From: Periplaneta americana
Taxonomy: Eukaryota > Arthropoda > Insecta > Blattodea > Blattidae
DNA: 64,000 nucleotides
Reading direction: 5' to 3'
Assembly: GCF_040183065.1 (NCBI RefSeq)
Contig: NC_091121.1
Coordinates: 62,218,287-62,282,286 of the forward strand
The notes under the pieces were generated by a model. It had not been told where the DNA came from. It saw only the letters and a program-made list of their open reading frames with translations, and ran no database searches. The position numbers were made by a program, and so were the translations under genes. Below, one piece after another: positions 1 to 54,900 of this stretch. Each line of letters begins with the position of its first letter. The first letter of the stretch is position 1.

Positions 1-1507
1 ATGAATGGAACACATCAAATTTGATGACACCAAATATTTTCACTTGGTAAAAAAGGAAGAGAATTCAATATCCAGTACAATGGCCTTCCTAGGACTTATG
101 AATCCAAATATCTTGGAGTTATTTGCGACAGTAAGTTAACATGAAGCAACCATTTGAAATATATTTCTGAAAAAGCTCGTAAAAGATTTTCCTTTTTGAA
201 AAGACTAGCAGGAAAGAAATGGGGATGCTCTAGAAATACTCTGAACACTACATACAAAATGTTTATACAGCCAGTGCTGACATACTGTGGAGAAATTTTA
301 ATTACTTCATCTTTCATAAACGAAATAGAAGTGTTCAAAACCAAGCTCTCAGGCTCATTACTGGTGGAATCAAAACAACTCCAATAGATTCTATGAGATT
401 CCTCACTAATATTAACAGTATCAAAATGACAATAGAAGAAAAAGCACTGTTCCAATATGAAAAACTTATCAGATTATCAGAAAAGAATCGGCATTCATAC
501 AGTCCTCTCTGTAGATTAAAAACTCAAAAAAGTTTCATATCCATGGTTCAAGAATTAAAACTGAAAATCAACATTCCAAATTTAAAAGAAAACTTACAAA
601 TTAAACCAAACCCTTTAACTCTATTAAATATAGAGTATAATCTAAATTTAACAGAAGAAATACTGAAATCAGAAGTAAACACTGAAATAATGAAACAATT
701 GTCTTTAGAGACAATTAATATTAGGCATCCTCCACAAAACTGGCTTCATTTATACACTGACGGATCCTTAATCTCCAGGGAACAAGGTGCAGGTGCAGGT
801 GTTACGTGCTGTCTCATCTCACTTTATAGATCTCTTGGTTATGGAACAACAAGTTTTGATGGAGAAATCATTGCAATAAATGAACGTCTCAGGAATCTTC
901 TATGCCACATCAATAAAATAAAAATCCAGTTATATTATCAGATTCCAAAGCAGCTATTCTATCAATAGTCTCTAGACATACACTTTCATTTCAAACAGCA
1001 GAAACAACTAAAATGCTCTCCCAATTAATACTCAATAAAAGAATTGTATTCCAATGGATACCATCCCACTGTGGAATCCCGGGAAATGAGAAGTGGATGC
1101 TTTAGCAAAGAAGGGCAGCACTGCTACTTACAGACCTGTTACTAAATCTACATATTACTCTGTGAAAAGATTGATCAAATATACATACCGGTACTTAGAC
1201 TTCAACAAACAAAATTTGATAACACAATCTCAATGGAAAAAATGGAACTCTCTGCATCATAATCCATAGTTAATTCCCAATTTACCACGCAAATCGTCTG
1301 TAGCTGCATTTAAATTGGCAACAGGCCAGATTGGAATATATCAGTCCCCTAACTGCCCATTATGCAATTCAAATCAAGAAATGGATTCGGAACAATTCAA
1401 ACTCTGTGCTTCAGTGGCTGACCATGACAATATCTTCGAAAAATATTGGAGTGCAAGAGGTCAAATGACTTTATTGTCAAACGCCTGGCATTAGAAAACA
1501 ATAACAT
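1..1507 (+). mobile_element. Non-LTR retrotransposon 'J', 3' part (RT C-terminus, RNase H, C-terminal zinc motif), broken
   Basis: The copy enters from the left edge. Translation gives the end of a reverse transcriptase (YLGVICDSK, then the thumb region, 90-390), a linker (393-720) and an RNase H domain starting with YTDGS near 755 and DGEIIAI near 860. A frameshift near 920 moves the DSKAAI and IPSHCGI segments into another frame, and further small deletions follow (about 1085 and 1325). The final part encodes the [13 protein letters not shown] zinc-binding motif (1350-1400). The copy ends in an A-rich AACAATAAC tail. Three more copies of the family occur at 24381-27058, 44023-44276 and 47452-52645. 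Gene order (RT, RNase H, CCHC-like tail) fits the Jockey/I/R1 superfamily; the clade is inferred. Confidence 0.85.
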
Positions 1508-13287: not shown

Positions 13288-16200
13288 TATTATTACAGTA
13301 TATGCATGTGACAGGTCCTAAGTGAGTTAATAATAACTGACTGTAACATGAATTTGTATTTACTCGGTCTACACTATATGTCAAACGGAATTACAATGCA
13401 GTCTTATGAAGTGATCAGTGGTTATGACGTCAGAGCTTGCAGTAAGACCTTTAATATTTCACAAACTAAAAGGCATAGAGAGATGAGACAAACGCCGTTA
13501 ATCTAAGGATTACTTAGGTAAACATCCTATAATATAATCAAAATTTCGAATTTTATCGCGTACTGCTCCTTTAAGATGTCTGCGTACATCCAGACTGAAA
13601 TGTGTGTGAATTGAGCAACAATGTTGGACAATACATGCTACTCCAGGAATTTGGGAGCAGGTCCGGACGTCGGTGCGATGAGGAACTGCGGCCTGTATTC
13701 AGGCAGGAGGTGGACATTTTGAACAGTGCCTGTAAACAAATGTACACAGACTGAAACATTAATCAACTAAAACCTGAGTTTTATAGTACACAATGATCCT
13801 CCTTGTAACTCCTATAGTGCGGCAACCAGGCATTTTCGGACCCATGTTCATATAACCTTTTATTCTTCTCTACATAATATATGACAAATCCGTACTTGAA
13901 GTTTGGCCCCTATTTTCGTTACACCCTGTATATATCCGTTCAGAGTAATTTGTTACAGGAAAAGGGGTATCTGGAACGGTATCTGAGATCATATTAAATG
14001 TATTGCTGATATTTCTAGTAGGGATGAAAGCTATCTTTGAGACTTCTGTCTACTGGATTGCTATACTGACCTCATAATTCCTCTGCCTATATTTTCCTAT
14101 ATATTACTTGACTGAGATGGAAAAAAAAACAACAGAAAAGTTTTGTCTGTGGAAACACATTTCTTGGAGCATTAATAATTCCAAGTTCAAAATCTGACAT
14201 AATTCTTGATATTAAAGATATTTTATTAATTTGTCCTACAGAATAATATCTGTAATATTGACAATTAATATTTGAGGAAAAAAATTCGCTCCGGTGCCGG
14301 GAATCGAATCCGGGTCCTTGGTTCTACGTACCAAGCGCTCTGACCATTGAGCTACGCCGAATTCAATCCACAGCACCGGACTGAACCTTCCTCCTTGAAT
14401 GTTTCCCTTTTGGCCTGACTCCAAGTTAGGCATATATGTTGATGTATATGTCCAATGTCAACTGCCATTATATTACGTCAACATATATGCCTAACTTGGA
14501 GTCTGACCAAAAGGGAAACATTCAAGGAGGAAGGTTCGGTCCGGTGCTGTGGATTGAATTCGGTGTAGCTCAGTGGTCAGAACACTTGGTACGTAGAACC
14601 AAGGACCCGGGTTCGATCCCCGGCACCGGAGCGAATTTTTCTCCTCAAATATTAATAATTCTTGATGATTGAACTTTGTCTCTTGACATACATTGCTGCC
14701 TCACTGCCTCAAATATCTCTTGGTATATACCACTTCAGTTTTAGAACTGAGAAGAGAAAATATAAATGAGAAGGGTACTTCAGTATCTTGACCTAAATGT
14801 AATGTTCATATGTTCCTTTTATGATTCGAATAATTGAGCCGTGCAGAGCAGAAGTGGTGTAAGTCAAAAATGGGTAATGAGGGTTAAAGTAAACATTCTG
14901 TAAAATACAGCGCAAAGTAGCAACTAATATTCAATTTATTTAAACTATTAGTAGTTAGTGGATAGCACGTAGGGCATATTAATTGTTACTTTGCGCTGTA
15001 TTTTACAGAATTTTTACTTTAAACCTCATATCCAATTTTGACTTACACCGCTTCTGCTCTGAACAGCTCAATCGTAAAAATCTGAACAAACAAATGAGTG
15101 ATATTTTGAAGTCCCATTGACGAAGCATATATCTGAATTATTCAGCAGTTCTAAATTATGTATCGTTGCAAATAACTCATTCTCTCTCATTTTCTCCTTG
15201 TTCAAAGGAATTGTACATCAAGAAACTGTTTTTGTGTGTCTGTCTGGTATCTGTATTAGATCTCTTATTGATTTAGGATCAGCAGGTATGTCTCTGTTGC
15301 GTTCACGGCATAATGTTTTCTTTATATTCTCTATTTCTGGAAGTTAGCTCAGTGTTCCTGAAGAAATTCTCGGACAATTCATTTCGAAGTATCTGGAAAG
15401 GGAGACCTCTGGATGATCTACTATTCTCTATTTTCTCCATGTCTACATTTCAAATGCTTCTAGTCGTTTCTCTTCACTTCACTTCGTAATAAAAAAATGG
15501 AAAAAGGTTAGTTTTAGGGGAAAATGCGTGTGGGAAAGATGGATTTGGAAAATGTGAAGTTGGCATGTTCGGTATTGGGAACTATGGGTTGGGGAATTGG
15601 AATTGGAAAATAACTATTCGGCAAATATGCTGTCGGTAAAAGTGGGCATTGGGATACTTGGATTGGGAAAAATGTACGCGAATTTTGTTCACTATGGCAT
15701 AGAAGTTTGTGGGTATATTTGCCATTCTGTGTTCTAATTGTTAGTGCTTTTGTGTCTAATGAACAAATGGATGTTGTTTCCAAGCAGACCTTAGCAGATT
15801 ACTAATCTTGTATTATATCTGTGCCTCTGCAACGTCACAATTTATGAGGGGTAAAAGAGATAGCAAAAGGTTCTACTAATCTGTGAGAAAAAGTATGTCT
15901 AAATGTTCAGCTTCATTCAACTCATACAAACAGTGACCAGAGCATGTACTTATATCTAAACACTCAGTTTCAACTCATACAAGCAGTGACCAGAGCATTG
16001 GAATAAGAGCAACCAGGTATCTTTTGTTTTGATTTTTAATACTCGCCCACGATCAAGATAAGTCACTTGAAACTCGAAGGTCAGTCACCAGCAGAGATAA
16101 ATAGGATATCTGTAAATTTAATTTTCAACTCTCCTTGCTTTGAACAATTAGGACTGCCTTTCACAGGTCGTTACTGGAATTTACATAGTGCAGGCTACTG

Positions 16201-21168: not shown

Positions 21169-24009
21169 AAGACATCGGATTTTTAGGCACTAAAAATTGC
21201 AGTTTTAAGCGCCTAAAATAAGCTCAAAATTTGTAAAATTAGGCTCTATTTTAATGAAAATAGGCATTTTAGGCACATCAAGGTATCATACTTATTTCTT
21301 TCACTGAAATTTTTAGTTATACACTAAAATACGCACAAAAAAGTATGTTCAAACATTAAAAAAGAATACTATATTATATTTATAAACAGAGCTGCACAAA
21401 TTTAATATATTGAAACTAATGAAATAATGATTATTGATATCAAGATTACTCATTTTAAGTTATTGAAATTCAGTTCCATGCTCAGACTTTATTATAATTA
21501 TCTGCACAGTACACCACCAGAATTTTTTCTAAATTCTCCACAGTTAACCTTTGCCTTTTGTCACTGAGAATCATTTTGAAAGCAGAAAATCTTCTTTCAA
21601 CCAAAACTGATGTGAGAGGCGCAAATTTTAAATTAGGTACAATAGAAACATCAATACTTACTGGAACATTTACACTTTCCCCCGATATCACTCTTGACAC
21701 TTTTTCCAACAATGAAAATCCTACATTCTTATTTAATACGTTGTCCCACTTATTTTTAACTTTTTTCCCAGTTTCGCCCAAAGCAGAATGTATGTTCACT
21801 TGAGCTTCCTTTACTATTGCTATTTGGCTACAAAGAGATTGTTTTTCACGTTCTAATTGTTCAATGCTTGCAGGTATGAAAGAAAAGTTTGATGTTCTGT
21901 AGGCAATATCGTTTTTCACTCGTGAGTCATTCAGACAATCTTTCACTGCTTTCACACACGCTGCATTATCAGTTTCAGGTAATTTGTCAATAACTGTGAC
22001 CACTTCTTTAAAATACTTAGAATAATACACCACTGACTGAATCCAGGTTCCCCATCGTGTAACAACCGGCTGAGGTGGGAGTGGGGTGTCTGGAAAGTTC
22101 TCTCTGAATATTGAAATCCTGGATGGAGCTTTACAAAAACATTTTTTTGTGTTAGAAATAAACGAATTGACAAGAGGAAATTCATTCCGGATTGTTTCAG
22201 AAACCCTGTGAAGGCCATGTGCTAGACAGGTTACATGTGTGAGGTTAGGATAAAATGTTTTAAGAAGTGGAGCTGCAGCAACCATGTATGAGGCAGCATC
22301 AGCACAAAACAACAGAACTTTAGAATCGTCTATATTACCTGAGTATAAAGACTGTAGGCCTTTATTTACAAAATAAGCAATGGCTTGGCTATTCACTTTC
22401 GAAAGTTCCTTAACACATACGAGGTGTGGAATCGAAGGTCCGTCAGGACTAAGTTTTCCTACTACCATATTTGCTATATACCTATTCATAGGATCTGAGG
22501 TTTCATCCACAGAGACCCATATGTAAGAATCACCTATATCCTCCCGAATGGAAGCTAAAGTTTCATTGTATATTCTGTCTAAGTAATTTTTTCTTAGGGT
22601 CGACTCAGATGGGATATTTTGTTTGCAGTATTTTTGTAAAAACTGTCTTAAAACCGGATTTTCAATTGCATTCCAGGGAATGTTAGCAGCAACAAACGCT
22701 CTGGTTAAATCAGCATAGAAATTGCTGCTGAGATTGGATGAAGTAGGCTGTGTTAGTAAAGTTTGTTGCAGTTGATTTTTCTGCTGAGCTTTAGCCTTAT
22801 GAGCCGCTCCTTGCACATGCTGCTTTAGGTGGCACTTCTTTTCTTGCGAAATCTAAAAATGTAAAGTAAACTGAATTAAAATAAAATCCTAATTGTTGTA
22901 TTACCGTATTTCTATCACAAAGTTAGTGGGTTCGAACAATCAAAATTTTAATGACCTGCAAATACTTTAACTATCGGAATTTAAAAGGTTAAAGTATAGT
23001 GGTCTTAAAAAGAATTATACCTCAGGATAGCTCAGTCAATGTATAAATATTATAGGCCTACTCATTAAAATTAATAGAATTTATATATTTCAACTATTGT
23101 TACATACCTGTTTGCTACAAATCTTGCAGAATATTATTTTTCTAACCTAAGTGAATTCTGAATATTCTGTTAGCCATTGCCGGATCAATGTAGATTTTGC
23201 ACTTATATTTTTTGGCATTATCGTGTTAAACTTCACAGGAAAACGTCCTACCGCTCAAAACTTCTCAACACAAATAAGGTGAGGGAAAGAGCAACTGTTA
23301 ACGAGCATTCAAATGAACCGTTGTTATTGAGATTCAATTGGACAAAAATACAAAGTTCCACTTATTGTTGCATTTCCTGGTAGTGTTAACACTAGGAGGG
23401 CCATTCTTTTAAATATTTTGTAACGGTTTACCCTACTAATTCGCAGTTTTACGACTTTTCATAAATATTTCAAAAACACACTTTCTCCAAAAATTGTGAT
23501 TTTATGACACTCTGAAGGGCAGTACAGGTAATCGGTTTCAGACCAAAAGCAGTCATTTTTATAGTATAGTATATCTCTGAATCGGTAGCAGCACATGTTG
23601 TGATTGTTGCCTGCTTCAAAACTAAGGTTGGTTCTTTGTCGGCATTTATGCCTCCAAACATGTTAAATTCGGTGAAATCTATTGCGAGTGTCGTGAGATT
23701 CAAAACATTTTGTTTCCTTTATCAATGGTTTCATGGCCGGTGTGAAGCAAACTTTCCACTTTTTAAATGCCTTAAATTTCGCAGTGAATGCATGTATAAA
23801 TTGTAAAATGTAAGAGTAAAATGCGAAACTTTACAGTGAGTTGGGCATTTTTAGGCGAATATTAACAAATTAGGCTCTAATAACCGTTTTAGGGCACTAT
23901 AAAACTCTTTGAATACCTTTCAATTTCCATGAAACACAAATATTAATAATTATTTTTACTTTTCTCCTAAAGAAACAAAATAGGCATTTGCCCTAGAATC
24001 CGATGTCTG
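21169..24009 (-). mobile_element. Complete hAT transposon with 8-bp target duplication
   Basis: The element is flanked by ATAATGAC on both sides (21161-21168 and 24010-24017), the 8-bp duplication typical of hAT. Termini share AGACATCGGATT as inverted repeats. Subterminal regions contain many TTAGGC/AGGC-type motifs in both ends, likely transposase-binding sites. It carries a two-exon transposase gene on the minus strand (21482-23218). It sits in the interval between Max and AdSS. Confidence 0.92.
21482..23218 (-). pseudogene. hAT transposase (BED finger exon plus RNase H-like/dimerisation exon), one nonsense codon
   Basis: Exon 1 is 23218-23108 (ATG start, 37 codons, FCKICSKQ end). Exon 2 is 22852-21482 (456 codons plus stop); the 255-bp intron has GT and AG. 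Joined, CKIC of exon 1 and HLKQH of exon 2 form a BED-type zinc finger split by the intron. Exon 2 shows WVSVDETSDPMNRY (first catalytic Asp region), FCADAASYM (second), HVTCLAHGLHRV, VVTRWGTW, and the C-terminal hATC dimerisation region LTSVLVERRFSAFKMIL. It resembles the CGBP1-like hAT family. Exon 2 is fully open. Exon 1 has one in-frame TAG after EYSEFT, so the copy is probably inactive unless translation starts downstream of the stop. Confidence 0.88.
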
Positions 24010-24360: not shown

Positions 24361-25258
24361 TTGTTAGATATTTATTATTATGTTGTTTTCTAATGCCAGG
24401 CATTTGACAATAAAGTCATTTGATCTCTTGCACTCCAATATTTTTCAAAGATATTGTCATGGTTAGCCACTGACGCACAGATTTTGAGATGTTCTGAATC
24501 CATTTCTTGATTTGAGTTGCACAATGGACAGTTAGGAGACATATATCCCAATTCTATGTAGGTGTTTGGCCAAACAATCATGGTCTGTTGCCAATCTAAA
24601 TGCAGCTACAGATGATTTTCGTGGTAAATCGGGAATCAGCTGTGGATTATGATGCAGAGAGTTCCATTTTTTTCCTTGGGATTGTGTTATCAAATTTTGT
24701 TGGTTGAAGTCTAAGTAGGGTAAACTAGGTAGTTATTGACCAGTATACGGTGATTGACCGGTTCCTTTTTTCAAGTATATTGTGAATAAACCACGATCGT
24801 GATTTCACTTTTTGCTGCATATACCTCTAGTAACAACCCTTATTTGTGGTTAGTTGTCGCTGTTCATCCCACTGAGTTAGTGTCTGTTGTCTGAGAGGAC
24901 TGAAATCGATTGGAAATGCAACTGAACATAAACAAGTGTAAGTAACTAGAGAAATTGCTAAGAATAATGCACGCAATAATTTATTTATTCTGCAAAGGAT
25001 ACATAAATTCTGGTGCTCGTTTTTACACTCACAGTGTGAGAAAAGGTATAAGGTTTCCGTCCACAGAATATTATTTTGTAAAAGTTTTTATATGACATAA
25101 AAATGCCCCGTGGTCAATCACTATAAAGTGTATGTCCGCAAACTACAGTGATTGGTCGTTCATAAATTATTTGTTAGAATAATGACCAATGTGCTTCAAT
25201 TCTATATATGTTATCGGTTAAATGATGGGGATTTTTACAGGACTGATACTATATTATA

Positions 25259-26041: not shown

Positions 26042-27074
26042 GGTCAATAACTGTAAAAGTGGACTTGTTGTGTTTATTTAATTTATCTTTGCATTAAAAT
26101 TTTATTTTTTCTTTTGTTTATTGATTTTGATTTGTTTCTGAATCTTCACTTGACCCAATGCCTTTAAAATTCTCTCAATAAGTTACCACTGTTTTCCGCT
26201 ATTTCATTGTTTTATTATTCATTAGCTTAAGTGGTCAATCACTATACAGTTTACCCAATGTAGATTTAATAAATCTTTTCACAGAGGAATACGTAGATTT
26301 AGTAACAGGTCTGTAAGTAGCAGTGCTGCCCTTCTTTGCTAAAGCATCCGCATTCTCGTTTCCCAGGATTCCACAATGGGATGGTATCCATTGGAATACA
26401 ATTCTTTTATTGAGTGTTACTAGTTGAGAGAGCATTTTATTTATTTCTGCTATTTGAGATGAAGGTGTGTGTCTAGAGACTATTGATAGAATAGCTGCTT
26501 TGGAGTCTGACAATATAACTGCATTTTTAAATTTATTGATGTGGCAGAGAAGATTCCTGAGAATTTCACTTATTGCAGTGATTTCTCCATCAAAACTTGT
26601 TGTTCCATATCCAAGAGATCTATAAAGTGAGAAGAGACAGCACGTAACACCTGCACCTGCACCTTGTTCCCGGGAGATCAAGGATACGTCAGTGTATAAA
26701 TGAAGCCAGTTTTGTGGAGGGTACCTAATATTAATTGTCTCTAAAGACAATTGTTTCATTATTTCAGTGTTTACTTCTGATTTCAGTATTTCTTCTGTTA
26801 AATTTAGATTATACTCTATATTGATTTAATTTGTAAGTTTTCTTTTAAATTCGGGACGTTGATTTTCTGTTTTAATTCTTGAACCATGGATATGAAACTT
26901 TTTTGAGTTTTCAATCTACAGAGAGGACTGTATGAATGCCAATTGTTTCCTGGTAATCTGATAAGTTTTTCATATTGAATCAGTGTTTTTTTTCTTCTAT
27001 TATCATTTTGATGCTGTTAATATTAGTGAGGAATCTCATAGAATCTAATGAAGTTGTTATATTTATTATTACTT

Positions 27075-45900: not shown

Positions 45901-48900
45901 GTGATCCTATCACGGATAGCTGCTACACCAGCCCACAGCTCTCCACAGCTGTCATCCAACCTTCTTCCATGAGAGTCTCCCCCAAAACTGCACGTGTCGA
46001 AATTCTCCCCCAGGAAAACCGACGCTAAAGAAATAATTAAAGCAAAAATGGCCAATGAAAATCAAAATCCCTGTCACGTGATAACTTTAATTTGCTCCGT
46101 ATACGTGAGAAAAAGGAGACCAAGAATGGCGGAAATAAAACAAGCTATCTATAGGAGAAAGAAAACTAAAAATGGAGAAGGAAACCACCTATGAAAAGTA
46201 AGGGTAACTAATAATAAAAAAGAATATAACAAGAATAAAGAAGAAAAAAGGAAAGAAAGAAAGGAAGATAGTGTGCCGAAACTAAAACGGCACAGTATTT
46301 AAGTAGATAAATTATACAGTAAGATATGGTCTGTTTTGATGTGAGTTGAAATTACCTTCTTCAACAACAGTTTGAATACCTTTGTGCAAATAGTAAATAC
46401 TTTACAAAACAGTAACAGCAACAATGATAGTGGTAATGTTTTAATGGTGATGATGCTGAAAATAAACATACCTTGCATTACTTGTATGAAATTGTTATGG
46501 CATTTTTTAAAAATTTAGTCAAAGCGAACCAGAAACTTTAATTCGTATTCTTCCAAACTTTACATCTGAACAAGATACGTAAACAAAATAAATTAGGTGC
46601 AAAACTGAACAACAGTATAAGTCGGCAGAGTGTAAAGTACAAAATTCTGACTAACAAAATCTTCTGGACATTGGGTGCATAAATCCACAAGGGACATCGT
46701 GATGTCAGCAAATAAAGCTGGATTCATGTATTAAGAAGTAAAGTAAAAAAATTGAAACTTTACAGATGACACTTTCTCATTATGGTACATGTTTTATTTT
46801 GGTTTTTAAAATTGTGTTACTAATGTAGTTCTTGAACCTTTCATTCAATTCATTTATTATTGTATTCCATAGATCTTACTTTAGCATTGAAGCTTTAAGA
46901 TGTGGAACAAGTCAAAATTTTATAAGTTTGCAATTTTTTGACGAGATGAAGTGAGGCCGAGGATTCACCTATGGTTGGGGAAAACCTCGGAAAATACCCA
47001 GCCAGGTAATCAGTCCAAAGGGGAATGAAACCCAAGCCCAAGCGCAGCTCCAGATCAGCAGGCTAGCGAGTCTGCCAACTTAGCTATGTTTAGTGGTTCT
47101 ACAAAAAAATATATAGTATGTAGCAAGTAGATGATTCAGTTTACAAACCTAAACAGTTATTCAACAGTTGAGATATAAAAATATAATACATAGCAAGTAA
47201 ATTAATTCAATTTAAAAGCATCAAAATTCAATCAGTTCGGATATATGAAAATTGATATCATGCACATTACTTCAATTTACAAGCATAAACAATTCGTCAG
47301 TTGAGCTATATAGACTGCTATTCAATTTACAGTACAGTATATATAATTCATCAGTTAAGCTATACAAAAATATACAATGCATAGTAAACAGATAATTAAA
47401 TTTACAAATATATTTTTGTTGAGCTATATAAAATTGTACAATTCATACCAATTCAACTCCAATAGATTCTATGAGATTCCTCACTAATATTAACAGCATC
47501 AAAATGACAATAGAAGAAAAAGCACTGATTCAATATGAAAAACTTATCAGATTACCAGGAAACAATTGGCATTCATACAGTCCTCTCTGTAGATTGAAAA
47601 CTCAAAAAAGTTTCATATCCATTGTTCAAGAATTAAAACAGAAAATCAATATCCCGAATTTAAAAGAAAACTTGCAAATTAAATCAAACCCTTTAACTCT
47701 ATTAAATATAGAATATAATCTAAATTTAACAGAAGAAATACTGAAATCAGAAGTAAACACTGAAATACTGAAACAGTTGTCTTTAGAGACAATTAATATT
47801 AGGTACCAGTACCGAGTCATTCCCGGGGGTAAAAGGCGGTCAGAGTGTGGTGCCGACCACACCACCTCATTCTAGTGCCGAGGTCATGGAAAGCATGGGG
47901 CTCTACCTCCATGCCCCCCAAGTGCCTTCATGGCATGTTACGGGGATACCTTTACCTTTTACCTTTACCCTCCACAAAACTGGCTTCATTTATACACCGA
48001 TGGATCCTTGATCTCCAGAGAACAAGGTGCCGGTGCAGGTGTTACGTGCTGTCTCTTCTCACTTTATAGATCTCTTGGACATGGAACAACAAGTTTTGAT
48101 GGTGAAATCATTGCAATAAGTGAATGTCTCAGGAATCTTCTATGCCACATCAATAAATTTAGGAATGCAGTTATATTGTGAATTTTATTAGTAACAACAA
48201 TGTAATTTATTCGTCACAACAATAATTCCTTTCTACAATTTGCCTTAAACGCTCTCGTCAACAATTGGATTTTCACTCAACACAGTATTCGTTATAGCAC
48301 TCCACTGATGACAATGACAATTTACTTGGCCTAGTACGAACAACAATGAACTGTTAATCTTAACTAATATTTACAAAGCACTATTTACAAATCAGAACTA
48401 TCAGTTCTCAGTCCACAGTTCTTCTATCTCAGTCACTCGAGTTCACAGTATCTCGAACCACAGACCTTCAGAGACAGTTCACTGTACTCGAACTCAGGTC
48501 CCTCCAACTGCGGTCCACTGCACTCGAACTCAGGTCCCTCCAACTGCGGTCCACTGCACTCGAACTCAGGCCTTCGGATGCTGATGCAGATGCGGACGCA
48601 CACTCGAGTCGAACTCCGGCACACAAGTCTGGCTTGCTTGCTCTGGCTTACTCACTGACTGAATAACTGAAAACTGAAAACTCCTGTCGTTCCTTCGCGA
48701 CCGTAATTTATAACCACAGCGACGTAGCCTCGAAAGTTCGAATTCGCGAGTCTTCCACTTCGACGGAATTCTCGGCCTCTCTAGGCAAGCAGAAGATGCG
48801 CGCGCAAACTCCCTCAGTGCCTCGTGAAGCCCGCTCGATATGCTCTCTCGCGGGACGCTGGTCGTGAGTTCGAATCTCACGTCGCTGTCACATTGCTCCC

Positions 48901-51900
48901 TCCTTAGGACTGCTCGTCTCGGGCAGTCCCTTGGTAGGCTGCTAGTCGGTCCAACGTTTGGGGTCCTCCGGCTGCTCCCTCCTTATGGTGGCGCCACCCC
49001 ATCCTTGGCTTGGCTGGGCAGCGATACTCGTTCTGCGTGGGCGCCATCTTGCTTTTCCACATGGCCCTCCAAGGAGAGCTCGCTGGCCACGGGTTGGTCT
49101 TCGGCGTCCATCAGGAACACTTCATCCCGACCAAGACGGAGTATACGGCGCCGGACGTCCACCGTCGCATCGAGTAACCGCATGGCGTCGAGTCCCAGGA
49201 CGACGTCCTTGGTGATGTTGGCGACGAACACCCACATCTCCAGTTTCCTCTTCCCCAAGGTCAGGTCCAGGAAGACCTCTCTCTGGATGGGCAAGCTCTC
49301 GCCTGAAGCAGTCCGTAGCTCGTATTGGCGCAGCGGTGTCCTCCCAGGTAGGCCACACACGACGTCTGGTCTGCGATAGTGAGCATCGCCCCGGTGTCCA
49401 CCAGTACTCTGCATGGACGGCCTCTTATCCGTCCTTCATCAATCAGCCCATCGTCGCACCTTCTGTCGACTGGTTTCAGGACGAGCCGAGGGGACGGTGA
49501 TGATGGTGCCGACGTGCTCCTCTTAGCATCGGGCCGACTGTTGCCAGGTCGGTCGCAACTCCTCTGCAGGTGCCCAGGTTCACTGCAGGACCAGCAGGTG
49601 GGCACCCGTCGTCTCTGTTGCTCAGGCGGCTGTTGGTTTCTCTCGGTGTCAGCCACCTCTCCCTCCTGCCGGTGGCCGGAGCGGTCGCAGTCCCTCCTTA
49701 GGTGTCCCGGTCTCCCGCAGGACCAGCAGTTGGGCGTCCGTCGTCTCCGCCGTTCCGTTGACTGTTGGCGCTCCTCGACGTCGGCCACCTCTCTCTCCTG
49801 CTTGTGGCCAGATTGGTCACAGTCCCTTCTCAGGTGTCCTGGTCTGCCGCAGCACCAGCAGGTGGGCGCCCGTCGTCTCCGCCGCTCCGTTGACTGTTGG
49901 CGCTCCTCGACGTCGGCCACCTCTCTCTCCTGCCTGTGGCCAGATTGGTCACAGTCCCTTCTCAAGTGTCCGGGTTTGCCACAGGACCAGCAGGTGGGCG
50001 CCCGTCGTCTCTGCCGCTCCGTTGACTGCCGGCGCTCCTCGATGTCGGCCACCTCTCTCTCCCGCCTGTGGCCGGACCGGTCGCAGTCCCTTTTCAAGTG
50101 TCCCGGTCTGCCACAGGACCAGCAGGTAGGCGCTCCTCGCCTCTGCCGCTCGGGTGGCTTCGGTTGGCGCCCCCCAGCATCCGTCGCCGTGACGCTCCTG
50201 ACCCAGTGCGGTGTTGAGACTCCCGCCGCCAACTTGGCTGCCTCCATCCTGAGGGCCGCCGTCAGAGCTGCGTTGATAGTGCGATGCTCTGCCAGGAGTA
50301 GCTGTTGTCTGATTTCGGGGTCTCGAACTCCGCTGCCGAAGGTGTAGGCCGCCTCTCCAGCGATGAAGTCATTAGGTAGGCCCCTGAGCGCCTTATGGGC
50401 CAGTTGTTCCACTGCCATCGCAAATTCTTGTAGGGACTCGCCTGACTGTTGGACCCTCGTTTTTAGTTGGGTCCTGAATGCTGCCGCAAGTTGATGGTCA
50501 CCATAACGTCCCTCCAGGGCCGCCATCATCTCAGCGGCTGTCCCATCTTTTGGAACGCTGTGAAGAATCTCCGACGCCTGCCCCTGAAGTGCGGCCAGCA
50601 GCTGAGTTGTTTTCTCTGCTGACGTCCACCCATTGTGCTCTGCGATGGCCTCGAACTGGCGATGGAATATCGCCCAAGACGTCGTACCGTCGAACTTCGG
50701 CGTCTTGACGTTGCAATGTCTGGCTGAGGGCGATGGTTCCACATGGCCACTACATGAGGTCCTCAATTCTGTCGTCGATCTTTCCAAGGCCCGTTGAACT
50801 TCCTCGGCAATTATCTGCTTCTGTTCTCTAGCCTGGCGATCCACCAACGCGAGGATGTGTTTGTTTTCTACAGCGTGTTGGTCCATTAACGCGAGTATGT
50901 GCTTGTTTTCCTCAGCGTGTTTGTCCATCACCTCACTCGTCTGCTTTTGACGACGCTCGAGATCGCGGATTTTGCCGCCGAAATGGTCTACATCCTGGCT
51001 CAACTCGGCTACTGTCTCGTTTATAGTTGTAAAATTCTGGTTTAGTTTATCCAAATCGGCCTTAAGTTCGTCTTTTACGATGGCGACAATTCCATCTATG
51101 TGGGCCGAAACGCTTTCAATTTGCGTAGTGACGTCATTTTTCACTCCGCTTATGTCGCCTTTCACTTCACTTATGTCACTTTTCATCTCTGTTTTCACAT
51201 CACTTATGTCACTTTTCATCTCCGTTTTCACATCACTTATGTCGTTCTTAACCTCACTGATGTGCTTGTTCATGTCGTTCATGTTATCTTTTACTTCACT
51301 AATGTGCATGTTCATTTCTGCTTTCATTTCTGCGATGGCTTGCAGGATCTGCTGTAGGTTCTCCATTGTCGATAATATCCCACTTCTGACACCAATGTGA
51401 ATTTTATTAGTAACAACAATGTAATTTATTCGTCACAACAATAATTCCTTTCTACAATTTGCCTTAAACGCTCTCGTCAACAATTGGATTTTCACTCAAC
51501 ACAGTATTCGTTATAGCACTCCACTGATGACAATGACAATTTACTTGGACTAGTACGAACAACAATGAACTGTTAATCTTAACTAATATTTACAAAGCAC
51601 TATTTACAAATCAGAACTATCAGTTCTCAGTCACTCGAATTCACAGTATCTCGAACCACAGACCTTCAGAGACAGTTCACTGTACTCGAACTCAGGTCCC
51701 TCCAACTGCGGTCCACTGCACTCGAACTCAGGCCTTCGGATGCTGATGCAGATGCGGACGCACACTCGAGTCGAACTCCGGCACACAAGTCTGGCTTGCT
51801 TGCTCTGGCTTACTCACTGACTGAATAACTGAAAACTCCTGTCGTTCCTTCGCGACCGTAATTTATAACCACAGCGACGTAGCCTCGAAAGTTCGAATTC

Positions 51901-54900
51901 GCGAGTCTTCCACTTCGACGGATTTCTCGGCCTCTCTAGGCAAGCAGAAGATGCACGCGCAAACTCCCTCAGTGCCTCGTGAAGCCCGCGCGATATGCTC
52001 TCTCGCGGGACGCTGGTCGTGAGTTCGAATCTCACGTCGCTGTCACAATATTGTCAGACTCCAAAGCAGCTATTCTATCAATTGTCTCTAAACACACATC
52101 TTCATCTCAAACAGCAGAAATAACTAAAATGCTCTCTCAATTAATATCACTCAATAAAAGAATTGTATTCCAATGGATACCATCCCATTGTGGAATCCTG
52201 GGAAACGAGAATGCGGATGCTTTAGCAAAGAAGTGCAGCACTGCTACTTACAGACCTGTTACTAAATCTACGTATTACTCTGTGAAGAGATTTATTAAAT
52301 CTACATACTTAGACTTCAACAAACAAAATTTGATAACGCAATCCCAAGGGAAAAAATGGAACTCCCTGCATCAAAATCCACAGTTAATTCCCGATTTACC
52401 ACGAAAATCGTCTGTAGCTGCATTTAGATTGGCAACAGGCCATGATTATTTGGCCAAACACCTGCATAGAATTGGAATATATCGGTCCCCTAACTGCCCA
52501 TTGTGCAACTCAAACTAAGAAATGGATTCGGAACACCTCAAAATCTGTGCTTCAGTGGCTGGTCATGATAATATCTTTGAAAAATATTGGAGTGCAAGAG
52601 GTCAAATGACTTCATTGTCAAACGCCTGGCATTAGAAAACAACAACAATTCATACCAAGTAGATTAATTCAGTTTACAAACATAAATAATTCCTCAGTTG
52701 TGTAGAAGGTATGAGTATGTAGAAATTTGGTTAATTCTGTTCTAAAAATTTTCTAATGGTCCTTCAAAGCTTTAAGATAAATAAGCAATGCATTGATGAC
52801 TAATACATGAATAGTGAGCTCCTTTTTTTAACAGCTTAGACTAACAGAGGATAGATTGAGATCTGACATGTCTTGTACTAAAATTATGATTAGTACTAAA
52901 CATATCTCGGTTTTTAATATGAAACATCAATAGGGAAAGACTGTACTCACAAGATAAGGTCAAAATTTCTAAATTTTGAAAAATATTTTTACATGAATTC
53001 CTTTTATGCACACCAGCCATTATTCTTGTAGGTTTCTTTTGTAAAACAAAAATGTGTTTAACTTCAGACGAGTTGCCCCAGAATATTAATCCATATTTCA
53101 TTACAGAATGAAAATATGCAAAGTATGACATTTTAAATGTGTTTATATCGTCAATGGAAGATAAGGATCTTAATGCATAACAGGCAGAGCTCAATTTAGG
53201 AGTAATATATTCTATGTATGTTTTCCAGTTCAAGCAGTTATCAAACCGTAAACCAAGAAACTTTGTGCGTATAGATTCTTTGAGATGAGATTTTTAGCAA
53301 CATCACAATACTTCCCTTAAGTAAAGGGAAAGCTAGCTGCAATATTTGACTTCTGAAGATTAAATAAAAGATAATAAACGAATATTGTACAAATACAGTA
53401 TATATTAATTTTTATTGTAGCATAGACAACTCAAGAGATATGTTTTGAGGAAACTATCTCACCATGAAAGACAAAGAAACAAAAGCGTGTAAGAATGATG
53501 GGAAAACTAAGGAATTAAATTTATCAGCAGAGTAGGCCTGCTATGAAGATCATAACAACTGTAGGAGAGTAGGTTGGCTGTTACAGTATGTTTTACACAA
53601 CAAACTTTAAGCGATTTACTCTGACCATACTTCAGGGAGCTTGCTTTTAGTTGTACTATTTCGAATGTGAATGTGCAGATTGCTTTTCATTATTTTATTA
53701 CTTAATTAGCATTTGTTTGCAGGTTATGTGTAACAAAACTAGACATTCTGGATACCCTTGCAGAGATCAAAGTGGGTGTGTCTTATAAGAGCAAGGGTAA
53801 GAAAATAGATTATTTCCCGTCCAATGCATCAGAACTTGGGAGTGTGGAGGTATGTGCAAGTTTCTAATACTTCTCAGTACGTCTGATGTTATTAACAGTG
53901 AAGGTTGTAACATCATTTATCACTTTTAACAGGTGGAATACATTACGTTACCTGGATGGGAAAGAAGTATAGAAGATGTAAGAGATTATGAGAAATTACC
54001 ACATAATGCAAAGAAATACATAGAGCTAATTGAAGAGAAGGTCCAAGTGCCTGGTAAGACTTTTTCTGTCCTAACAATTTAATGTTACAGAAGAAACACA
54101 GAACGTGAACTGAGATATATTTCTGAGTGTAACCTCTACATGAAGACAATGTGCTTTAGGAATCACCAATTTTGGTGATACCTTGTAGGATATTATAAAA
54201 CTACACTTGCTGGCAAATTTATCCTATTGTTTCTTGCATTTGATTTGTCTGTATGTCATGTATTGGAAAATTTCTGAACTTCATTTAATTTTTTATTTTA
54301 CTTTTTATTCTTTTAACTGTCACTTTATTAATCATTAATCATGTTATAAAATAAGTTGCTAGATACAGAGACATAACTTTAGGGGATTTTCATTGAGTGC
54401 AACAAATTATCAAGGTACAGAAAATGTAATGCTGAATGAAAATGTTTCTGTATCAATGAAATGTAAGTTTCAGAGACTATACCATGACCAGTATAAATAT
54501 AGGATATAACCTTCTCTACCTTGAACGACATCCTGCATTCGCCATGGTATAATCTGTATTACCAGCTATGTTGGCAGAAAACTTCATAATACTTTTCACA
54601 TATTACTGATTCTTTTATGGTCGAAGTTTCTTTATTAAAAACGGCGCGAAATGCATGTAAGAATTCTAACAGTGAGTTAGAATCTGACTCTTAGCATTAC
54701 AGATGAGACAAACTTGATCAGAAACGGAATTAACTTGTGATCAGAAAAAAATTAACTCGCAATGACCAAGACTGATTGGATAAATTTAGTGGTGAGTGAA
54801 ATTTTATTATAACATTATATGATGCTGAAAAGTTTCTGAGTTATTGGGAGCAAAAGTTGCTGTATATCATCATCTTGAATTAATTGGGGTATTGGGATTT

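Follow-up and report, generated by a model that had tools for sequence, protein, structure and literature searches.

The wheat gypsy elements RLG_Sabrina_SA and RLG_WHAM have been termed 'semi-autonomous' (PMC9744471), and in the available text of that paper they resemble the cockroach element analysed here in that they have two LTRs, occur in high copy number and encode an intact Gag-Pro while lacking RT and INT; co-evolution led to the proposal of RLG_Wilma as autonomous partner. They differ in belonging to plants, and Sabrina_SA is far longer (8.1–8.3 kb); the dN/dS values, the loss of the gag-pro frameshift, the multiplied zinc knuckle and the second copy of the polypurine tract (PPT) described below belong to the cockroach element and are unreported for Sabrina_SA and WHAM in the same portion of PMC9744471. 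What characterizes the wheat families is found in the cockroach as well, namely many copies in which Gag-Pro is intact and RT and INT are missing, and a partner sharing the LTR, the primer-binding site (PBS) and the PPT. The comparison is one of descriptions, and the resemblance is of kind, not of descent. A first-pass annotation of this DNA had regarded the keeping of gag-pro without pol as unusual, a view that has to be tempered since such elements are already described for wheat in the text just cited.

RLG_Quinta of einkorn wheat, as presented in the accessible part of PMC11302176, is like the cockroach form in being derived from a partner, RLG_Cereba, with loss of RT and INT and retention of Gag; the two share LTR ends, PBS and PPT, and their recombination involves gag. 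Unlike the cockroach form, Quinta encodes Gag and a domain of unknown function in place of the protease, is centromere-targeted and resides in a plant. The TR-GAG elements, in the extracts of PMC8704663 and PMC9784723, are also LTR elements, with a Gag frame only, and one Arabidopsis copy has transposed; they differ in being plant elements for which these extracts name no protease, and the Arabidopsis case belongs to ATCOPIA63, with no knuckle array stated. The cockroach element is not a TR-GAG, since a protease is present besides Gag (Asp_protease_2, 31.6 bits against a cut-off of 24.3 in locus L034), nor is it a LARD or TRIM, which have no coding capacity, since Gag-Pro coding frames are present. 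Helenus/TRIM elements are likewise non-autonomous LTR elements with 4-bp target duplications in animals, but in the excerpt of PMC10886601 the longest family is 1263 bp and the LTR is tRNA-like. No tRNA was found in the cockroach element by ARAGORN or Rfam (up to E 5). A T-arm-like motif is present at the end of the LTR, but for want of a match to any tRNA model a tRNA-derived, Helenus-like LTR is rejected.

No animal gag-pro-only LTR element was found in the literature searched, the known kin being from plants. Drosophila HeT-A (with TART/TAHRE) encodes Gag and no RT; it is similarly an insect retroelement with its own Gag and without RT, but it is a non-LTR, telomeric element.

Structure of the element and its insertion site

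The element occupies 3.9 kb of the minus strand (48177–52047) of the window, by which we mean the whole 64 000-nucleotide stretch of Periplaneta americana DNA analysed. It has TG..CA LTR ends, a target duplication, a PBS and a PPT (Table 1). In the LTR–LTR alignment 647 of 652 aligned bases are identical, with gaps of 21, 36 and 7 bp besides. The PBS is complementary to the 3′ end, CCA included, of tRNA-Leu(CAG) genes, and a single spacer base (51395) separates it from the 5′ LTR. The insertion lies in a non-LTR element and interrupts its RNase H frame; when both host flanks are joined with one ATAT this frame reads through, and an uninterrupted paralogue is located at window positions 729–1332. 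No RT, RNase H or integrase is present in the window element, and its probable class, a Ty3/gypsy-type LTR retrotransposon, is assigned through the PRO-RT-RNaseH-INT domain order of its partner.

The N-terminal part of the 701-aa frame is coiled-coil-like, and its capsid-like region has weak matches to PNMA and Retrotrans_gag. A tblastn search of Gag against phage gave weak matches only (24–30 % identity, N-terminal part) and was dropped. Asp_protease_2 scores only 14.6 bits on the 701-aa frame, below the cut-off of 24.3. A frameshift breaks the protease in this copy: the 701-aa reading frame ends in an out-of-frame tail, and the remainder of the protease is encoded in a different frame. Over the same 508-bp segment, the 39 other scored copies are all one base longer. 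With its protease frameshifted, the window copy itself is no source of active Gag-Pro. The first-pass annotation had reported both LTRs, the ATAT duplication, the tRNA-Leu primer site, the PPT, a 701-aa Gag and protease motifs, all of which are confirmed, and about 90 bp between the end of the protease frame and the PPT, which agrees with a second frame ending at 48983, about 90 bp before the LTR; its protease frame holds as regards the motifs but not as an intact reading frame.

Table 1. Features of the window element and of the host frame that it interrupts
Feature	Position	Strand	Remarks
5′ LTR	51396–52047	−	652 bp, TGTGAC...TTCACA ends
3′ LTR	48177–48892	−	716 bp
Target site duplication ATAT, low side	48173–48176	none	
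Target site duplication ATAT, high side	52048–52051	none	
Primer-binding site TGGTGTCAGAAGTGGGAT	51377–51394	−	Complement of tRNA-Leu(CAG) 3′ end
701-aa open frame from ATG	49264–51366	−	N part, capsid-like region, knuckles, protease start
Five CCHC zinc knuckles	49555–50124	−	Array of 132-bp units
Aspartyl protease region (VDTG)	49067–49570	−	Limits approximate; frameshift-interrupted here
Deletion junction 1	49052–49070	−	Protease end joined to RNase H–integrase linker; microhomology AAGT
Second copy of PPT core AAGGAGGGAGCA	48973–48984	−	Within retained linker
Deletion junction 2	48941–48955	−	Linker joined to pre-3′ LTR sequence; microhomology TGGAC
Polypurine tract TAAGGAGGGAGCAA	48893–48906	−	Abuts 3′ LTR
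Host, left part of non-LTR retrotransposon RNase H frame	47876–48178	+	Interrupted
Host, right part of interrupted RNase H frame	52048–52518	+	

The full-length partner and the origin of the gag-pro form

A full-length partner, for which the first-pass annotation had suggested a search, is present in the genome and includes RT, RNase H and integrase. It carries gag followed by pro-RT-RNase H-integrase in the −1 frame, and the frames of one copy (L031) match the RVT_1, RT_RNaseH, Integrase_H2C2 and rve profiles. The partner and the gag-pro form have in common their LTR ends, the variants of the PBS, the PPT and a preference for ATAT targets. Each of the three partner copies that were fully read falls short of a proven intact element: in L031 a stop separates RT from RNase H, the pol of L032 is spread over several frames, and L043 is missing the pol end, the PPT and 32 bp at the start of its 3′ LTR.

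Relative to the partner, the window form is without RT and RNase H (junction 1) and, separately, integrase (junction 2), with short microhomology at each junction, and the comparison shows the gag-pro form to be the apparent product of two internal deletions in the partner element. These domains are absent rather than decayed, as had been proposed. Both junctions, 120 bases apart, are present in all 22 gag-pro loci read, a set composed of the top matches of a single 508-bp probe plus two LTR hits and not drawn at random; each deletion would have occurred a single time.

In whole-genome 32-mer counts junction 1 is represented by 303 copies, junction 2 by 285 and the uninterrupted pro-RT stretch of the partner by 665, with controls of 0 throughout; the first-look candidate numbers 3416, 2498, 1197 and 791 are not copy counts and were left out. 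The deletion form has been amplified into a lineage of about 300 copies. The junction matches thus supply the further gag-pro-only copies that the first-pass annotation had thought worth counting. It had also reasoned that a majority of copies with full pol would make this a single deletion derivative; copies with pro-RT are indeed the more numerous, but the recurrence of both junctions rules out a single derivative.

The partner has a −1 frameshift between gag and pro, whereas the gag-pro lineage has one fused frame, and the one zinc knuckle of the partner compares with two to five in the gag-pro lineage, where the CCHC pattern recurs. Within this selected set, in nine of the 22 loci a single frame stays open between the Gag start and a common end, ...APP (705–823 aa, stop to stop), and a tenth (L064, 699 aa) differs solely in its APT ending, so that the frame is open from start to end in 10 loci, the window copy not among them, and 12 are without a full open frame. 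All 19 loci used for pro retain VDTG.

Selection on Gag and Pro and exchange between the two forms

The dN/dS ratio is 0.266 for gag (95 % 0.205–0.349; 14 of the 22 pol-less loci) and 0.238 for pro (95 % 0.103–0.488; 19 of 22), with shifted-frame controls at 1.11–2.51. In-frame synonymous sites are about four times more variable than nonsynonymous sites, a pattern that is gone in shifted frames. Gag and Pro of the sampled pol-less copies are under purifying selection, and gag has been maintained for long, as its mean dS is 0.15. The low dN/dS could in part reflect older exchange with partners. Frequent recent exchange of gag with partners is rejected as its cause, since the trees separate the two forms (9/9 partners in one group in the Gag tree, and 12/12 partners apart from 19 gag-pro copies in the pro tree, each with support 1.000); L063, in which the start of pro is partner-like, is a recombinant in pro.

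The LTRs of the two forms, unlike Gag and Pro, intermix. A 612-bp piece of partner linker/integrase with identical breakpoints is found in three loci, its only three matches in the genome; all three are recombinant and have no coherent gag. From the LTR intermixing and the recombinants we infer that RT and integrase are supplied in trans, most likely being borrowed from the partner.

Maintenance of the gag-pro form

The gag-pro form is probably a semi-autonomous ('satellite') Ty3/gypsy-type element that encodes its own Gag-Pro and obtains RT and integrase in trans. Its RNA would be translated into Gag-Pro, which would act largely in cis in the packaging and particle assembly of that RNA; the partner's Gag-Pol would co-assemble and act in trans as the source of RT, RNase H and integrase, and co-packaging would allow template switching, by which the two forms would exchange LTRs and other segments. 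The view of the first-pass annotation that the element makes its own particles is supported, as regards the particle protein, by the purifying selection on Gag and Pro, but does not extend to the window copy, which cannot make intact protease. We note that fusing Gag and Pro at 1:1 should yield an excess of protease, which is harmful to assembly in some retroviruses; this expectation counts against the satellite model.

A more elaborate possibility, which we offer tentatively, is that the satellite re-engineered its Gag to compete with the helper by dropping the frameshift, multiplying the knuckles and keeping no more of pol than a short piece with a second (central) PPT. Without the −1 frameshift every full-length chain would carry protease, and the increase of the RNA-binding knuckle from one to between two and five would win packaging for the satellite's own RNA.

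It is unlikely that the gag-pro form is instead a mutualist Gag donor, feeding bulk Gag to partner particles rather than mainly to its own RNA. The authors of the wheat studies, in the available parts of their papers, propose this role for Sabrina_SA/WHAM and Quinta, and the LTRs common to partner and satellite would fit it, but a purely trans-acting protein should decay in its carrier copies unless there is a cis benefit, and the partners' own gag is equally constrained (dN/dS 0.26).

Distinctly improbable is an ordinary dead deletion derivative, LARD-like, that lost pol by chance, retains a gag-pro as yet undecayed and is copied passively by the partner. The protease frameshift of the window copy, the 12 loci in which a full open frame is not seen and the three recombinants without coherent gag are what such a derivative might look like, but it is largely refuted by dN/dS values of 0.27 and 0.24 in pol-less copies against at least 1.1 in shifted frames, and the long maintenance of gag also tells against it, as do the fused frame and the array of knuckles, both unseen in the partner. 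That gag-pro is kept as RNA, with packaging or dimerization signals overlapping gag and conserved in cis without translation, is very improbable, for although retroelement packaging signals often extend into gag, and the element has likewise kept the leader, the PPT and the linker with its PPT copy, the frame-dependent excess of synonymous variation and the conservation of VDTG and CCHC speak against it.

The long-standing question of why some retroelement parasites keep gag when Gag could be borrowed is now a testable one. Pol-less copies with selected Gag and Pro coexist in one genome with a matched helper family, the two forms differ by a short list of changes (frame fusion, knuckle number and pol loss), and the system permits direct tests of whether Gag acts in cis, whether the two forms compete for packaging and whether a frameshift between gag and pro is needed.

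Structure and insertion site of the window element

The first-pass annotation described a gag-pro-only LTR retrotransposon, and this is real: the LTRs, the ATAT duplication on both sides, the primer-binding site (PBS) and the polypurine tract (PPT) are present, and RT, RNase H and integrase are gone. The coding strand is the minus strand, and the LTRs agree at all but 5 of 652 aligned bases, with additional gaps of 21, 36 and 7 bp. Rejoining the host flanks with a single ATAT restores a non-LTR retrotransposon's open RNase H frame, and an insertion-free paralogue of that host element lies within the window. The PBS is the exact complement of the tRNA-Leu(CAG) 3′ end including CCA; the tRNA 3′-end pattern is found at 31 genomic places, 30 of which have exactly the complementary letters, and in the single cluster that was fetched all three genes are tRNA-Leu with anticodon CAG. 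We note that the start of each LTR, read on the plus strand, resembles a tRNA T-arm (GTGAG TTCGAAT CTCAC), and no tRNA model matches it. Elsewhere in the window are two tRNA-Tyr (GTA) genes, about 200 bp apart and in opposite orientation, and a 456-aa open frame that resembles a hAT-type transposase remnant.

Coordinates of features in the window
Feature	Position	Strand	Basis or remark
Window element	48177-52047	-	
LTR of window element	51396-52047	-	pairwise comparison
LTR of window element	48177-48892	-	pairwise comparison
T-arm-like LTR start	48858-48892	read on +	
T-arm-like LTR start	52013-52047	read on +	
Host non-LTR element, empty-site paralogue	729-1332		
Host non-LTR element, additional piece	24572-24717		
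Host non-LTR element, additional piece	26258-26723		
tRNA-Tyr (GTA)	14288-14361	-	
tRNA-Tyr (GTA)	14559-14632	+	
456-aa open frame	21482-22852	-	

The annotation had also reported an open 701-aa Gag and protease motifs. The frame is confirmed, with five CCHC knuckles (132-bp units) followed by an aspartyl protease start, but the protease is not intact: its remainder sits in a different frame and hence reflects a frameshift, the same segment being one base longer in the 39 other scored copies.

Two deletions and an amplified lineage

Aligned to L031, a full-length relative (partner) whose frames match RVT_1, RT_RNaseH, Integrase_H2C2 and rve, the window element retains gag-pro, a piece of about 110 bp of the RNase H-integrase linker and the last 60 bp or so before the 3′ LTR. 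This alignment indicates two separate deletions, one of RT with RNase H and the other of integrase, whose ends share AAGT and TGGAC. Genomic copies were counted as whole counts with 32-base patterns at up to three mismatches, for which all reversed-pattern controls gave 0. The junction of protease end and linker has 303 matches and that of linker and pre-3′ LTR sequence 285, so that about 300 copies have the gag-pro-only structure; the uninterrupted pro-RT stretch of the partner has 665, about twice as many places, which denote pro running towards RT and do not imply a complete pol. Such stretches do outnumber the junctions, as expected if the window copy were a single deletion derivative of a pol-bearing family, but the junction counts show an amplified lineage.

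We read 22 gag-pro loci (the window, L033-L042 and L054-L064), 20 of which, including the window, are matches to a probe spanning both junctions, L033 and L034 having come from LTR matches. All 22 have both junctions, 120 bases apart, and a PPT beside the LTR. BLAST identity of the LTR pair, with gaps counted, is at least 98 % in 12 of the 17 loci with a measurable pair, some of these 12 being measured over a pair truncated where the fetched sequence stops, and 90.4-95.0 % in the other five, among them the window. ATAT is present on both sides in all nine copies whose two outer flanks are visible. In 9 of the 22 a single frame (705-823 aa stop to stop) covers the Gag start and VDTG and reaches a common end, APP; that of L064 (699 aa) ends APT, and that of L054 is open to the end with the usual start codon lost. 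L036 is a complex rearrangement, with extra partner segments in inverted orientation upstream. The LTRs nearest to those of the window are mostly solo, 23 of 30 loci lacking internal sequence and six others having it (the partial L026 is excluded from the tally); a matching 4-bp duplication flanks 21 of the 23 solo LTRs and is ATAT in 16, at least three of these lying within AT repeats, in which a match comes easily.

Changes in the gag-pro lineage

Partner gag encodes one CCHC knuckle in a frame ending KQEN-stop at 11/11 loci (L043-L053), with pro in the −1 frame at ten (L049 is disrupted), and the gag/pro overlap sequence is identical in all 13 partners, L031 and L032 included. Intact gag-pro copies have gag and pro in one frame, and 2-5 knuckles are found in 17 of the 18 gag-pro loci with a PBS located by script, a count that leaves out L035, L036, L041 and L059, where the script missed the PBS; the sole one-knuckle locus, L060, is recombinant. 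The retained linker contains AAGGAGGGAGCA, 12 bases of the PPT. This 12-mer is present in the RNase H-integrase linker of the three partners with the linker fetched (L031, L032 and L043) and in the retained linker of 22/22 gag-pro loci. A copy of the 12-mer arose by chance in 3 of 3000 random sequences under an order-1 model, and it is a candidate central PPT.

Selection on Gag and Pro

In gag-pro copies the NG86 dN/dS is 0.266 for gag (bootstrap 95 % 0.205-0.349; 14/22 loci) and 0.238 for pro (0.103-0.488; 19/22 loci), sets that exclude loci where the required frame is not open and hence, for pro, the window copy. Partner values are 0.261 for gag (9/13 loci) and 0.189 for pro (12/13 loci), and shifted frames of the gag-pro sets give 1.11 and 2.51 for gag and 1.46 and 1.68 for pro. 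VDTG is present in 19/19 gag-pro loci and 11/12 partners of the pro set. Unrooted gag and pro trees each split gag-pro copies from partners with support 1.000, so in most copies the constraint is not loaned by recent exchange; L063, with a partner-like pro start, adjoins the partners in the pro tree.

The partner family and recombinant copies

The full-length partner family that had been anticipated was found: its LTR ends are like those of the gag-pro form, PBS variants are common to both, and L031 and L032 have the same PPT. Some copies, such as that of the window, match the tRNA-Leu(CAG) 3′ end over 18 bases, and others of either form over about the first 11-12, varying beyond. Partner flanks are ATAT on both sides in L032 and L043, and ACAT and ATAT in L031. 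Of the three partners read over their whole length, none was shown to be intact: in L031 a stop falls between RT and RNase H, pol of L032 is split over several frames, and in L043 the pol end, the PPT and the initial 32 bp of the 3′ LTR are missing. In an LTR tree (17 gag-pro LTRs and six from three partners) the partners fall at two separate places amid the gag-pro LTRs, in contrast to gag and pro, where the forms separate.

L041, L059 and L060 represent a third form, comprising a gag start, 612 bp of partner linker/integrase sequence (97 % to L031) in place of the gag core, and a pro end, with identical breakpoints at all three; its junction has three genomic matches at up to three mismatches. 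Template switching by RT within particles that hold both RNAs would be expected to yield such products.

Relationship to known elements

The wheat elements RLG_Sabrina_SA and RLG_WHAM are likewise gag-pro-only, the former being termed semi-autonomous (PMC9744471). Other reports indicate that Quinta retains Gag alongside Cereba (PMC11302176), that TR-GAG transposition has been observed in Arabidopsis (PMC8704663), that zinc-knuckle multiplication, remarked for a domesticated Gag gene, is atypical of retroelements (PMC9784723), and that Culex has a set of non-coding LTR elements (PMC3286476). No animal gag-pro-only LTR family is among the literature matches listed, which is weak evidence of absence since subscription papers were mostly outside the search.

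The window element thus belongs to an amplified lineage with two deletions, selection at the protein level, cis signals in common with a partner family that this genome also harbours, and recombinant copies. Gag-Pro would work mostly in cis, with RT and integrase supplied in trans; that Gag is under selection in copies able to borrow it speaks for an advantage to the RNA that encodes it. Plants are known to have elements of this kind, and the frame fusion, the knuckle array and the retained PPT copy are what is new here.
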